Origin: Fontibacillus panacisegetis
GTDB lineage: Bacteria; Bacillota; Bacilli; Paenibacillales; Paenibacillaceae
Reading direction: 5' to 3'
Assembly (NCBI RefSeq): GCF_900102215.1
Contig: NZ_FNBG01000012.1
Location: 1 to 64,000, forward strand
DNA: 64,000 bases
Both the position numbers and the translations under genes were made by a program. Shown here one piece after another: positions 13,182 through 23,471 of this stretch. Each line of letters begins with the position of its first letter. The stretch's first letter is position 1. The notes under the pieces were generated by a model. It did not search any database. It was not told where the DNA came from and saw only the letters and a program-made list of their open reading frames with translations.

Positions 13182-14228
13182 TTAGCGCACTACGCTGCGA
13201 AGAGATATATTACCGGCATCATCCTGCATGAGAAGCTCGTCCCCTACAAAATAGAGAAAATTCGATTGATTTTTATTCATATCTCCGTAATTAAAGATGT
13301 TTCCCGTACGAAGGTCCATACCGCGCGCTATGTGTTTATCGTTAACCTTCTCTGTCCAGGCTACATAGTTCGTTCCCACAGATAGCAATTGGTTGGGCGC
13401 ATTATGTATGGAGGAAGAGAGATTAATTGTTTTCTGCTGTGCATTCGGCTTCGTTAAGTCGACAATGGTATAGGCATTAAGGTATTGTTTTTTCTTCGCA
13501 GGGTCAAGTCGAGTTTGCGTTTCTGTAAACCAAATGACATACTTGCCATTAAAAGCGGCATTGTGAAACTCCTGATTGTCTTTCATTGTAACCACAGAAG
13601 TTACTTTGTCAGTAGCTATATCATAAGTCGACAATGTGTAATCCGGGTAATCCTGCCTTACAAGCAATTTTCCATCCACGATATCCATCACTTTGTAAGA
13701 TTTATCAAGCACTTTAGTCTGCTTGGTCTTTAAGTTGATAATGGTATAACCGTCGTGACTTGTGGAATATACCAGATAATTACCATCGACATTGAGATAT
13801 TCAGGGTAATCTCCTTCGTCTAGTAGCTGCTGCGTTTCTTTGGTTTTCAAATTGTATTGGATAATATTTTTTCGATAGACATTTATATTTTTCGTTACAG
13901 GTATAGTTGATTCTAAGAAAAAGATATCGTCTCCTTTAATCCGGATACTGGTCTTAAAAGTGTTCGAATTAGTGATCTGTTCAAGTTTTCCTGTCTTCAC
14001 TGACCGTAAATATACTTGTGGGATACCGGCTTTGTCCTTTTCAATAAAGACAAAACGATCTCCGGAAATTCGGAAATTATAGCTTGGCTGAGTGCTGTTG
14101 GCAACCTTGCGGTCTTTTGTTTGGTACGTCCCAGCTCCAAATACCGGGGTTGCTGCTAAGAGTAGGGAAGCTATGATCATAAGCAGCATAGCACGCCCAT
14201 ACTTTTTGTTGCGGGAATTTGTGTACAT
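13182..14228 (-). CDS. Secreted TolB-like beta-propeller protein under cyclic-di-GMP control
   Basis: A 348-residue protein with a signal peptide: basic start, hydrophobic AMLLMIIASLLLAATPVFG, then a mature start near residue 32. The remainder shows repeated blades of the form GDRFVFIEKD, GDDIFFLEST, GNYLVYSTS, GKLLVRQDY, GKYVIWFTE, TNYVAWTEK and GDELLMQDD. That is about seven blades, as in TolB/DPP-IV N-terminal propellers. Such domains bind peptides or polysaccharides; the ligand is unknown. ATG follows AAGGAGG. A cyclic-di-GMP-I riboswitch lies in the 5' leader, so an exported matrix- or adhesion-related role is plausible. Confidence 0.82.
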   Translation of the reverse strand: MYTNSRNKKYGRAMLLMIIASLLLAATPVFGAGTYQTKDRKVANSTQPSYNFRISGDRFVFIEKDKAGIPQVYLRSVKTGKLEQITNSNTFKTSIRIKGDDIFFLESTIPVTKNINVYRKNIIQYNLKTKETQQLLDEGDYPEYLNVDGNYLVYSTSHDGYTIINLKTKQTKVLDKSYKVMDIVDGKLLVRQDYPDYTLSTYDIATDKVTSVVTMKDNQEFHNAAFNGKYVIWFTETQTRLDPAKKKQYLNAYTIVDLTKPNAQQKTINLSSSIHNAPNQLLSVGTNYVAWTEKVNDKHIARGMDLRTGNIFNYGDMNKNQSNFLYFVGDELLMQDDAGNISLRSVVR

Positions 14229-14278: not shown

Positions 14279-14305
14279 AAAAAAACCAAGCTGCCGAAGC
14301 AACCC
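14279..14305 (-). terminator. Riboswitch-linked intrinsic terminator
   Basis: On the minus strand GGGTTGC and GCAGCTT pair around a TTCG tetraloop and are followed by GG and seven T. The 5' arm re-uses the GTTGC that closes the riboswitch aptamer, so the two structures are mutually exclusive. Confidence 0.75.
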
Positions 14306-14383
14306 CGCTGTCATGCCGCTTGAAGAGCGGTTTAGACCGGTAGCTTTGCGTCTTCCGCCTTTCGGACGAAAGTTGCCTTTGTT
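14287..14383 (-). ncRNA. Cyclic di-GMP-I (GEMM-I) riboswitch
   Basis: Minus-strand features match the class-I aptamer: AAAGGCAAC opening, GACGCAAAGC, CCGGTCTAAACC, a CCGCT..AGCGG stem, ATGACAGCGGGGTTGC closing. GCAAC (complement of 14372-14377) and GTTGC (complement of 14299-14303) form the closing stem. Because the terminator re-uses GTTGC, ligand binding should prevent termination, giving an ON switch for the beta-propeller gene starting at 14228. Confidence 0.92.
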
Positions 14384-14589
14384 CTACATCTTGGTGACGT
14401 GGAGAACAACATAAAATCTTGGATTATTTTGTCGCTTTTTAGAATATTCTAGGAGGAATGTGAATTTCCTCTTCTCCCACTCGAAATAAGGCACTTATCA
14501 AACAAAATCCCGAAGAGGGCAGCAACAGCCTGCCCATTGGCAACCTGTCTCAGCCCTCCAACCCGCGTCCGACGCGGTCTCTTAAGCTC

Positions 14590-14650: not shown

Positions 14651-15162
14651 ACTCCCCCACGAACCCCCATGCTTGAATAGTTCCAACGTCAAAAAGTAGG
14701 GGTTCGGAGCAGCGCGGCGGGAATGCCTCGGAGGATATGCCAGCGCCCATGTGCAACGCCCTCCCTTGGCTACGCTTGGGAGGACTTGTGGAGCAAGAAG
14801 CCGTGGGGAAAGAGCTAGCGAAACAGTATGGTTTGAGCCAAGGGAACATATTCCCTTGTGGTTGGGTCAAGCCGAACAGGACGCTAATTAAAGTATAAGT
14901 GAAACAAGGTAGCATTCCAAAATCCGGATTGGCTACAAAGCTGATGTTTGCAAGCTGTTGGCGGTTGTTTGCAAGATTATTCTGCTTGATTCATTTAACC
15001 CAAACTAACCCTTGATATAATTAGAAATTTATTGAACAATAAAGTAGAAATAGTTGCACCAAACGAAGATTATGTGTCGGGCTGAGGTATGACAAGGGGA
15101 CGGAATATGCCTAAGTCGGATTGGTCGGCATACAGAGGATTATCGAGACTTGGAGGTGAAAC
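14651..15162. other. G+C-rich then A+T-rich stretch without a convincing gene
   Basis: From 14651 to 14930 the composition is clearly G+C-richer than the neighbourhood, with a CCTCCC..GGGAGG hairpin near 14770. Open frames on either strand have no start signals or recognisable motifs. From 14940 the sequence becomes A+T-rich and contains a possible promoter (TTTAAC, 16 bp, TATAAT near 15016) for the leader and methyltransferase. TGTTTGCAAGCTGTT near 14947 recurs near 16428. Confidence 0.5.
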
Positions 15163-15252
15163 ATGGCAATTACATTCGGTTATGTACTTGGCGCGCTCCA
15201 TGCAAGGTCTGTCAAACAGACGGCGAAACTTGCATGGAGCATAAGATACTAA
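15163..15252 (+). CDS. Putative 29-codon leader peptide
   Basis: ATG at 15163 is preceded by GGAGGTGAAAC, an excellent ribosome binding site. The frame runs 29 codons, beginning MAITFGYVLG and ending AWSIRY, then TAA. Both arms of a perfect 12-bp inverted repeat lie inside this small frame. A leader ORF that overlaps alternative hairpins just upstream of a ribosomal/RNA methyltransferase resembles antibiotic-inducible attenuators of the erm type. No matching known leader is recognised. Confidence 0.65.
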   Translation: MAITFGYVLGALHARSVKQTAKLAWSIRY

Positions 15253-15302
15253 TTTCGCCGTAACCGTTTGTCGGCCTTGCATCCTTAAAGATAATTTTAA
15301 GG
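15195..15302 (+). promoter_or_regulatory. Candidate attenuator with mutually exclusive hairpins
   Basis: Stem A: GCTCCATGCAAG (15195-15206) with CTTGCATGGAGC (15229-15240), enclosing GTCTG..CAGAC. Stem B: CGGCGAAA (15221-15228) with TTTCGCCG (15253-15260). The CTTGCAT of stem A recurs at 15276-15282 and can compete for the same partner. Stem C: CCTTAAA (15283-15289) with TTTAAGG (15296-15302) hides the AAGGAG of the methyltransferase. Confidence 0.65.
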
Positions 15303-15312
15303 AGCGGGTAAT

Positions 15313-16035
15313 ATGACAAACAAATTTAAAGCGTATAAAAAGGAATTTGAGATTTCCTACACGTCAGGCGCTTATGCGACGTTTGAGTTATTAAAAAAAC
15401 GTACTAGCGACGCCGAGTGCGTATACATCCACTCGGATTACCGCGACGACGATGGCCTTAGCGAGCTGTGCAATGCATTAAACGTGCCTCTAGTGCAGTC
15501 TGACAAGGCATTTAGCATTTTAAACCAAAAGGGAAACAGCTATGTACTCGGTGTATTTCGCAAATACGCGGACGCGCTTGCGGTAGATGAGCCACATATT
15601 GTGCTAGTAAATCCGTCCGATATGGGAAACCTCGGTACAATCATCCGCACGATGGCAGGACTGAACCTTAGAAATCTTGCCGTGATTGAACCGGCGGCGG
15701 ATGTGTGGAATCCAAAAACCGTTCGTGCCAGTATGGGCTCGTTGTTTCACATACGTCAATGCGTTTATGCGAGCTTTGACGAGTACCAGACGCAATATCC
15801 GCTCCACACCTTGTTTCCGTTCATGCTTACTGGCTCGATTGCGCCAGAGGACGCACCGCCGTGTCCACTCTTTACACTGATTTTCGGAAACGAGGCAAGC
15901 GGACTATGCGAAGCATTTGCCCATATTGGTCAAAGCGTTAAAATCCCGTTGTCTACCGATCTGGACTCGTTCAACCTTTCCATCGCGGCGGGGATAGGAA
16001 TGTATGCGTTCGCACGGAACAACAATTTGGTGTAA
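15313..16035 (+). CDS. TrmH/SpoU-family RNA 2'-O-ribose methyltransferase
   Basis: A 240-residue SPOUT-class methyltransferase. The three SpoU motifs are clear: NPSDMGNLGTIIRT (motif 1, about residue 98), LIFGNEASGL (motif 2, about 189) and IPLSTDLDSFNLSIAAGIGMY (motif 3, about 211-231), forming the knotted SAM site. A short N-terminal domain (about 90 residues) should bind RNA. The closest recalled types are Firmicute TrmH-family proteins and TsnR-like 23S rRNA enzymes, but the target base is unknown. The leader peptide and RBS-sequestering hairpin upstream make an inducible ribosome-protection role a reasonable hypothesis. Flanking duplicated sequence suggests acquisition. Confidence 0.85.
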   Translation: MTNKFKAYKKEFEISYTSGAYATFELLKKRTSDAECVYIHSDYRDDDGLSELCNALNVPLVQSDKAFSILNQKGNSYVLGVFRKYADALAVDEPHIVLVNPSDMGNLGTIIRTMAGLNLRNLAVIEPAADVWNPKTVRASMGSLFHIRQCVYASFDEYQTQYPLHTLFPFMLTGSIAPEDAPPCPLFTLIFGNEASGLCEAFAHIGQSVKIPLSTDLDSFNLSIAAGIGMYAFARNNNLV

Positions 16036-16458
16036 GTGCAATTAAGTTTAAGTGCCACAAGAGGCACAAGCACGTCTGGGCTGCGCGGGGTCATCCAGTT
16101 CGCTATCGTCTGCCGCGAGAGTGTGCAGCCAAGCCGTGTAAACATTTACTACTACCGATGCAGCGGAGAGGCTGGACGAATTGATAACAAGTGCAGCAGC
16201 AGCCATCCGTTCATGATCAGCTGTCACCATAGGCCGACCACCACCAAAACTCGTGGCAGTCACTTGAGCGTACCTTGCTCCGGTTGACTGCCTCTTGTTG
16301 TCACGGAGACGGCAGTGAACGAGAGCCGTAGAGAAGGTGACTGCAGGCGATAGAGGAGACAACAACCTGGATCCGACCGTCTCGCAGTGGCTGGCTCAGG
16401 GTTCCTGCAACTGTTTTCCTCGGGTTCTTGTTTGCAAGCTGTTTACAGAAAAGCCCAA
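16036..16458. other. G+C-rich intergenic stretch, no gene assigned
   Basis: About 420 bases between the methyltransferase and the sulfurtransferase 3' flank. A small GTGCC..GGCAC hairpin lies just after the methyltransferase stop (about 16052-16068). The rest is G+C-rich. Open frames exist on both strands (for example about 105 codons on the minus strand), but I see no start signal or family motif. It probably belongs to the acquired segment. Confidence 0.45.
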
Positions 16459-23228: not shown

Positions 23229-23267
23229 AAGAGGGCAAGGCAAAGAAACTGCCGAATATTCATATTA

Positions 23268-23336
23268 ACTCGTATAATGCCGGGGATATGGCCCGGAAGT
23301 ATCTACCTGAGAACCTTAAATTTTCGGACTACGAGT
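23268..23336 (+). ncRNA. Guanine-class purine riboswitch
   Basis: ACTCGTATAAT opens and GGACTACGAGT closes the three-way junction, with GATATGGCCCGGAAGTATCTACC and the AACCTTAAATT loop region between. The junction base corresponding to position 74 is C (GGACTAC), which specifies guanine/hypoxanthine rather than adenine. A terminator follows at 23472. Confidence 0.95.
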
Positions 23337-23471
23337 GAATACGTTACTTGAGTCAGATTGTTTGTGACATCATTCGAGATTCATGTACCTAGCCAAGTAC
23401 TTATGATTTTATTTACTGCGGCTTGTACGTGTCCTTTTGTCCAAATGATGATTCGGAGTATTCGCTATGTG

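Follow-up and report, generated by a model that had tools for sequence, protein, structure and literature searches.

The window analysed here, a continuous stretch of 64,000 nucleotides, carries a gene for a SpoU/TrmH-family 2'-O-methyltransferase that is preceded by a short leader open reading frame (ORF) and a series of RNA arms capable of alternative pairing. The features of this locus are the following:

15152-15159, forward strand: SD of the leader, GGAGGTGA, read from the sequence
15163-15252, forward strand: leader ORF of 29 codons plus stop, MAITFGYVLGALHARSVKQTAKLAWSIRY, with ATG at 15163 and stop at 15250-15252
15184-15186, forward strand: stall codon predicted by constrained folding, with Val8 in the P site and Leu9 in the A site
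15195-15209, forward strand: arm 1, of which 15195-15206 pairs with arm 2 and 15200-15209 with arm 3
15220-15228, forward strand: B, the 5' half of a stem spanning the leader stop (sequence and shuffle test)
15229-15240, forward strand: arm 2, pairing with 15195-15206
15253-15261, forward strand: B', the 3' half of the stem spanning the leader stop (sequence and shuffle test)
15273-15289, forward strand: arm 3, of which 15273-15282 pairs with arm 1 or with the region past the SD, and 15282-15289 with the SD
15296-15308, forward strand: arm 4, the methyltransferase SD (AGGAG, 15300-15304) and the bases past it
15313-16035, forward strand: SpoU/TrmH-family 2'-O-methyltransferase of 240 aa (Pfam SpoU_methylase)

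The first-pass annotation had described a 29-codon leader frame overlapping a perfect 12-bp hairpin, and both are present, at 15163-15252 and 15195-15240, respectively; the hairpin (1:2) is formed by 15195-15206 and 15229-15240. The alternative pairing of ATGCAAG with CTTGCAT (1:3) is longer than had been claimed, since ATGCAAGGTC (15200-15209) and GGCCTTGCAT (15273-15282) form 10 pairs, one of them G-U, and the stem bridging the leader stop (B:B'), given as 8 bp, has 9 pairs between ACGGCGAAA (15220-15228) and TTTCGCCGT (15253-15261). The SD of the methyltransferase, whose start ATG lies at 15313, is hidden as stated in a final hairpin of TCCTTAAA (15282-15289) with TTTAAGGA (15296-15303). 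Together these parts exceed chance: the RNA 15163-15320 folds at -55.8 kcal/mol against a shuffle mean of -37.1 (z -4.73), with one of 200 dinucleotide shuffles as stable, none of 100 shuffles gave an equally good B:B' helix, and the parts recur in independent loci. In the window, the element matches no Rfam family. Control is placed at the level of translation because no terminator-like site was found in 14900-16400, and transcription attenuation was ruled out at this locus on the same ground.

The 240-aa protein passes Pfam SpoU_methylase with 92 bits (cut-off 29.7), in line with the SpoU-type enzyme annotated at first, and the G-N-x-G, E and S-x-N-L positions, which we take to be the SpoU motifs, are invariant in 29 aligned methyltransferase sequences. 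It reaches no cut-off in NCBIfam, scoring 44.9 of 160 bits for RlmB, 41.8 of 191 for TrmL and 39.1 of 167 for TrmJ. Two riboswitches were detected elsewhere in the window: a c-di-GMP-I riboswitch (14295-14387, reverse strand, 61.6 bits) before a 348-aa ORF without a Pfam match (13182-14228, reverse strand), and a Purine riboswitch (23250-23351, forward strand, 84.8 bits) before ORFs named purE-like (23609) and purK-like (24112) by sequence reading.

Relatives of the methyltransferase and its leader

Relatives of the enzyme were taken as the best 80 of 117 loci from a scan of genome contigs, and two more were obtained by whole-genome searches of 98 genomes, one from the same genus (54% identical) and one from the same order (49%). 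A covariance model of the RNA element matched upstream of nine of 83 related methyltransferase sources, the window counted; these are the window, L084, L085, three Tissierella loci, L005, L031 and L007, and the remaining sources gave no element match at E 0.01. L005 carries the label Parabacteroides but comes from a metagenome bin, as a contig of 5.3 kb, so its host is doubtful. In eight of the nine, the leader is MA[IV]x[FY]Gx[TV]L...[LI]HA[RK]S with arm 1 from codon 12, and the leader of L007 has a different, longer start. The start MA[IV]x[FY]Gx[TV]L and all arms thus recur in other loci, and the non-conservation of leader and stems that the first-pass annotation had named as a refutation is not what is observed. 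Over all pairs of the eight TrmH leaders, codon differences in the leader frame are 81 synonymous to 122 nonsynonymous, versus 27:158 and 3:171 in the other frames.

In L001 (65% identical), the leader start, arm 3 and SD are kept and arms 1 and 2 are absent, and the leader frame continues through the SD into the methyltransferase start (upstream of 5001). Judged by this arrangement, L001 looks like a natural constitutive variant, and its loss of arms resembles the deletions that make erm genes constitutive. The leader-bearing enzymes cluster in a tree of 29 sequences in which L001 was counted as leader-bearing (2 changes; none of 500 shuffles as low). The methyltransferase gene is accessory in the genus, being found in 2 of 40 genomes, its own included; the neighbouring rhodanese gene is found in 35 of the 40. 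In G001, the rhodanese gene and the methyltransferase lie on different contigs. No plasmid or phage record with a copy of the methyltransferase was found at 80% query coverage.

Distribution and conservation of the cassette

By way of a weak BLAST match (E 6), the same arms were recognised on a Subdoligranulum plasmid, ahead of an MFS-type ORF. Among 391 genomes of the Tissierella class, five carried the arm 1-arm 2 pattern, one of them being the centre genome (reversed control, 0); so did 9 of the 13 genomes or records from which chosen loci derive. No exact match to the pattern was found in viral contigs. Based on the covariance model, which encodes 1:2 and 3:4 as pairs and from which 1:3 is absent, the element is present in 16 of 58 genomes of one order (E<=1e-4), in 56 of 194 and 16 of 120 genomes of two further orders (E<=1e-6) and, for the class to which the window belongs, in 46 of 348, every positive tally including at least one genome that supplied model sequences (G402, G426, G099, G100, G063 and G000). 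The control class, that of a Bacteroidetes genome, gave the model 0 of 199 genomes with an element. The attenuator cassette is real and widespread, and the window carries one copy of it. For the analyses below, 104 aligned matches were reduced to the first match per locus (81 loci; 23 second matches, mostly antisense, were dropped) and then to a non-redundant set of 62 elements by excluding rows of >=85% identity; L122 represents the antisense strand of L121, and L149 stops at a contig end.

The same RNA cassette heads unrelated genes, including Cfr, Lsa-family ABC-F proteins and MFS pumps; the commonest among them encodes a small protein of the CD3324 family. Among 72 loci, which are those returned for the better model matches in three orders rather than all places, the next gene encodes a small protein of one cluster in 33, an MFS pump in 17, Cfr in 9, a ceramidase-like protein in 4, an ABC-F protein in 3, TrmH in 2 and an APH-like protein or one with DUF4037 in 1 each; one contig end and one antisense artefact make up the rest. 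L105, the representative of the 33-member cluster, belongs to the CD3324 family (114 bits, cut-off 65). In the window's class, 58 places gave 20 loci, two of them with TrmH (L179, L180), and by eye a CD3324-like gene follows in all 18 others that were read. The cassette is therefore general and not special to the TrmH methyltransferase, which the first-pass annotation had missed. Curated cut-offs were passed by the one Cfr (598 vs 550 bits) and the one Lsa (759 vs 750) that were tested, and the MFS protein of L099 resembles Mef models, far under their cut-offs.

Several genomes contain more than one element. In G099, G758 and G812, a second element lies ahead of an Lsa-type gene about 1.6 kb from the Cfr element, and two elements at the same spacing occur in G681 (second gene unread) and G480 (neither gene read). 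G099 (Tissierella sp. P1, the genome of L004) has four, ahead of TrmH, Cfr, Lsa and a CD3324-type gene. Some arrangements deserve mention in their own right: the tandem of Lsa-type ABC-F and Cfr, each with its own cassette about 1.6 kb apart (L158/L175, L161/L176, L177/L178); the CD3324-family small protein as the commonest gene after the cassette (L105-L107, L125 onward, L181-L198); and a ceramidase-like protein after a cassette with an LCIVFAPC leader (L110, L112, L114, L147), which is unexpected for drug resistance and in L110 scores 31.3 bits in Pfam, just below the cut-off of 32.1. The cassette was rejected as the leader of mobile cfr genes, the upstream sequence being different in three plasmid records (one each for cfr, cfr(B) and cfr(C)) examined of 180 with a match.

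An ORF enters arm 1 in 81 of 81 elements, compared with 70% of random positions, and a leader ATG with an SD match of at least 5 bases accompanies 65% of elements, compared with 4% of random positions; the ORF upstream of arm 1 is likely translated. Arm 1 is read in frame 0, 1 or 2 of the leader ORF in 52, 25 and 4 elements, respectively, and is therefore kept as RNA, a point that the first-pass annotation had also missed. Peptide-only conservation of LHAKS was rejected, the same DNA reading APCKV or SMQS elsewhere.

Compensatory changes in the stems, proposed at first as a check, are evident for the alternative 1:3 helix, with 50 double-changed paired cells in the 62 elements against 18.4 in shuffles (none of 1000 as high), but not for the SD-closing 3:4 helix. 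The counts for 1:2 (42 double-changed paired cells vs 11.2 shuffled, none of 1000 as high, 62 elements) and for 3:4 (consistent in 89% of cells) lean to structure because these pairs are in the model, arm 2 having moreover been located by complementarity for 1:2. Covariation of 3:4 does not go beyond shuffles (163 of 500 on cells paired), its changes being one-sided but for one cell, so mutually exclusive helices are found of which the one closing the SD is without covariation support. In a set of 14 sequences, 1:3 has 12 double-changed cells against 5.2 shuffled (0 of 500), and sliding the partners lowers pairing from 90% to 17-43%; pairs of 1:3 changed on both sides number 4 vs 2.8, a value reached by 101 of 500 shuffles, and further pair types are unremarkable in this set (25 of 500 shuffles). 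The B:B' helix beats shuffles (p<=0.05) in 45 of 62 elements.

Predicted stall position, mechanism and alternatives

Constrained folding was performed on the 62 elements with a ribosome footprint from P-14 to P+16 forced unpaired, and the cost of opening the SD and start region was computed. The mean gain is +3.25, +3.44 and +3.15 kcal/mol with the P site at -14, -13 and -12 from arm 1, respectively, and +0.3 kcal/mol at -20; a ribosome on arm 1 brings a loss of about 2 kcal/mol. When 1:3 is forbidden, the mean peak is gone (0.06-0.12 kcal/mol), and 11-15 of 62 elements still gain at least 2 kcal/mol at -14 to -12. In 50 of 62 elements the best gain at these positions is at least 2 kcal/mol, and in 12 it is smaller; in four of the 62 (L005, L098, L144 and L170) the gain there is nil or negative. 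For the window, with the same footprint assumed, the best codon is 8, where the ribosome lowers the probability of 1:2 from 0.997 to 0.004, raises that of 1:3 from 0 to 0.69 and brings B:B' to 0.96. The outer part of 3:4 falls from 0.59 to 0.04 and the inner SD hairpin stays at 0.965; the opening cost therefore falls only from 13.8 to 9.6 kcal/mol, not to zero, and it is chiefly the start-codon side that the predicted switch opens.

The P-site codon predicted from the RNA meets conserved leader residues in four groups. Leaders of Cfr and Lsa have [VIL]-T-H at the site in 12 of 12 cases, many of them near copies and only three under 85% identity, and TrmH leaders have [TV]-L in 8 of 8, seven of them under 85% identity. 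In the leaders of MFS and ceramidase-like proteins, Leu or Phe precedes the site in 20 of 23 and Ile follows it in 20 of 23; in the 19 with both, the site is at codon 3 to 7 and holds Cys, Thr, Asn or Ala. No clear stall motif was found at the predicted site in the leaders of CD3324, the largest class (35 of 81), nor in those of APH and DUF4037. In PMC11832420, chloramphenicol stalling is reported to favour Ala and, less so, Ser and Thr at the penultimate position. A P site one codon later would put a small residue there, which makes drugs of the peptidyl transferase centre (PTC) the first candidates as inducers by analogy; Val stands at the would-be penultimate position in 5 of 8 TrmH leaders.

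It is quite probable that the element is a leader-peptide translational attenuator and that the resulting rise in TrmH serves to methylate 23S rRNA and protect the ribosome; the inducers are probably drugs acting on the 50S subunit. In the absence of drug, 1:2 and 3:4 would pair, and the methyltransferase SD and start codon would be closed. A drug would halt the ribosome near leader codon 8, with the nascent chain MAITFGYV, and the leading edge of the stalled ribosome would cover the first half of arm 1, by which 1:2 is broken and GCAAGGTC stays free. The free GCAAGGTC may then pair with arm 3, aided by B:B', and draw it off the start region, so that translation of the methyltransferase would rise and the enzyme would probably methylate 23S rRNA and shield the ribosome. 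The ribosome-stalling attenuator with erm-like parts that the first-pass annotation suggested has in its favour the parts themselves, their conservation, the covariation of 1:3, the position-dependent switch in folding and the company of Cfr and Lsa, all seen by computation. Against it stand the inner SD hairpin that persists in the window, the elements with little or no gain, those that still gain with 1:3 forbidden, the absence of covariation in 3:4 and the CD3324, APH and DUF4037 leaders in which no clear motif was found. We infer stalling itself, an inducer acting at the PTC or the exit tunnel, and the rRNA target.

For the predicted switch, any cause of a ribosome halt at -14 to -12 relative to arm 1 would do, and the leader might accordingly sense general translation stress, such as amino-acid shortage, uncharged tRNA or slow codons, rather than an antibiotic. 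The commonest downstream gene, of CD3324 type (33 of 72 loci and 18 of 18), has leaders without a common stall motif, as such sensing would allow. Biosynthetic attenuators, however, have runs of one amino acid in the leader, whereas the conserved residues at the site vary here by gene class (L-C-I, T-H and [TV]-L) with no single-amino-acid run, and the drug-resistance genes Cfr and Lsa are among those downstream; stress sensing is therefore considered unlikely.

Direct binding of an antibiotic or other ligand by the RNA, as a riboswitch with 1:2 and B:B' forming a pseudoknot, would suit the position of B in the 1:2 loop and of B' past arm 2, which is the order of an H-type pseudoknot, as well as the B:B' helices that beat shuffles in 45 of 62 elements and the arm 1 sequence kept in all three reading frames. 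Yet B:B' also nests within 1:3, which makes a pseudoknot unnecessary, the base conservation of arm 1 is explained by its two pairing partners, and a riboswitch does not account for the likely translated leader ahead of arm 1 or the conserved stall-site residues in four groups, so that we give this reading very little credence. Least probable of all is a conserved leader that merely tunes basal or coupled expression with no inducible switch: L001, without arms 1 and 2 and with its leader frame running into the gene start, would give such steady coupled translation, but the covarying 1:3 helix and the positional peak that depends on it are needed by a switch and not by a tuner.

In this same reading, the cassette is a general module placed ahead of several resistance-type genes. 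A broader reading may also be drawn. We lean slightly towards a portable Firmicutes cassette that senses ribosome drugs by nascent-peptide stalling through many leaders and in any frame, serves eight unrelated families in the loci read, has in CD3324 an antibiotic-induced regulator and in uup RNA a relative with terminator output. Many leaders in any frame would be allowed because the sensing part (the codons before arm 1) is separable from the switching part (arms 1-B-2-B'-3-4). If this is true, Cfr, Lsa, MFS pumps and uncharacterised genes in Firmicutes would have one common control, and the covariance model would allow hidden resistance genes that are drug-induced to be detected computationally from their switch and not from homology. 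The TrmH enzyme and the CD3324 family would be pointed to as ribosome-drug genes, the orphan uup RNA would be offered a reading, and the fixed distance from stall codon to arm 1 would make drug sensing by the nascent chain testable on dozens of natural leaders.

Comparison with known systems

As far as the literature was searched, the kind of cassette is known and the variant and its reach are new; no report of the cassette was found by narrow searches of the open-licence literature.

The orphan motif uup RNA (Rfam RF03060), which probably goes back to Weinberg in 2017, shares with the cassette the hairpin GCUCCGUACAA...UGUACGGAGC, the overlap with a leader ORF and, in L123, an ABC-F-like gene downstream. 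No match to it was found in window positions 15000-15400 up to E 10, and the 1:2 hairpin of L121 scores 25.2 bits, below the gathering cut-off of 36.8. In the true uup loci L123 and L124 (about position 1500), uup RNA lies within leader ORFs with an ICSVQ motif and is followed, by sequence reading, by an ABC-F-like gene in L123 and a methyltransferase-like gene in L124; arm-1:arm-3 pairing in the two loci is not better than in shuffles. A terminator-like site downstream in L124, the only uup locus scanned, suggests transcription attenuation there. From these comparisons, uup RNA appears to be a relative in design and, by test, not of the same family. According to a 2024 review (PMC11477304), no further evidence supports a riboswitch function of uup RNA.

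The leader of VmlR in B. subtilis likewise exerts leader-region control that includes translation attenuation, and VmlR acts against pleuromutilin, lincosamide and streptogramin A (PMC9226507). It differs in that the title of this paper also names transcription attenuation and pausing of RNA polymerase.

The SpoU resistance methylases AviRb and NshR/TsnR belong to the same superfamily as the window enzyme. Its sequence matches in the PDB include 1x7o (E 1.9e-10), presumably AviRb, and 3nk6 (E 1.6e-7). It differs from NshR/TsnR in reaching 36.3 bits against the cut-off of 425 for that 23S rRNA methyltransferase, and 5kzk and 7qiu are nearer to it in the PDB.

The erm attenuators of the ermC and ermB types have in common with the cassette a leader peptide, mutually exclusive hairpins and a methylase start that is closed until the leader stalls, and the stall codon predicted in the window, 8, is close to codon 9 of ErmCL. 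The principle of erm-type translational attenuation is set out in PMC11264731. In contrast to erm, the predicted stall in the window covers half of arm 1, 1:3 replaces 1:2 and the sequence is its own, while a SpoU enzyme stands in place of Erm and one cassette serves several gene families.
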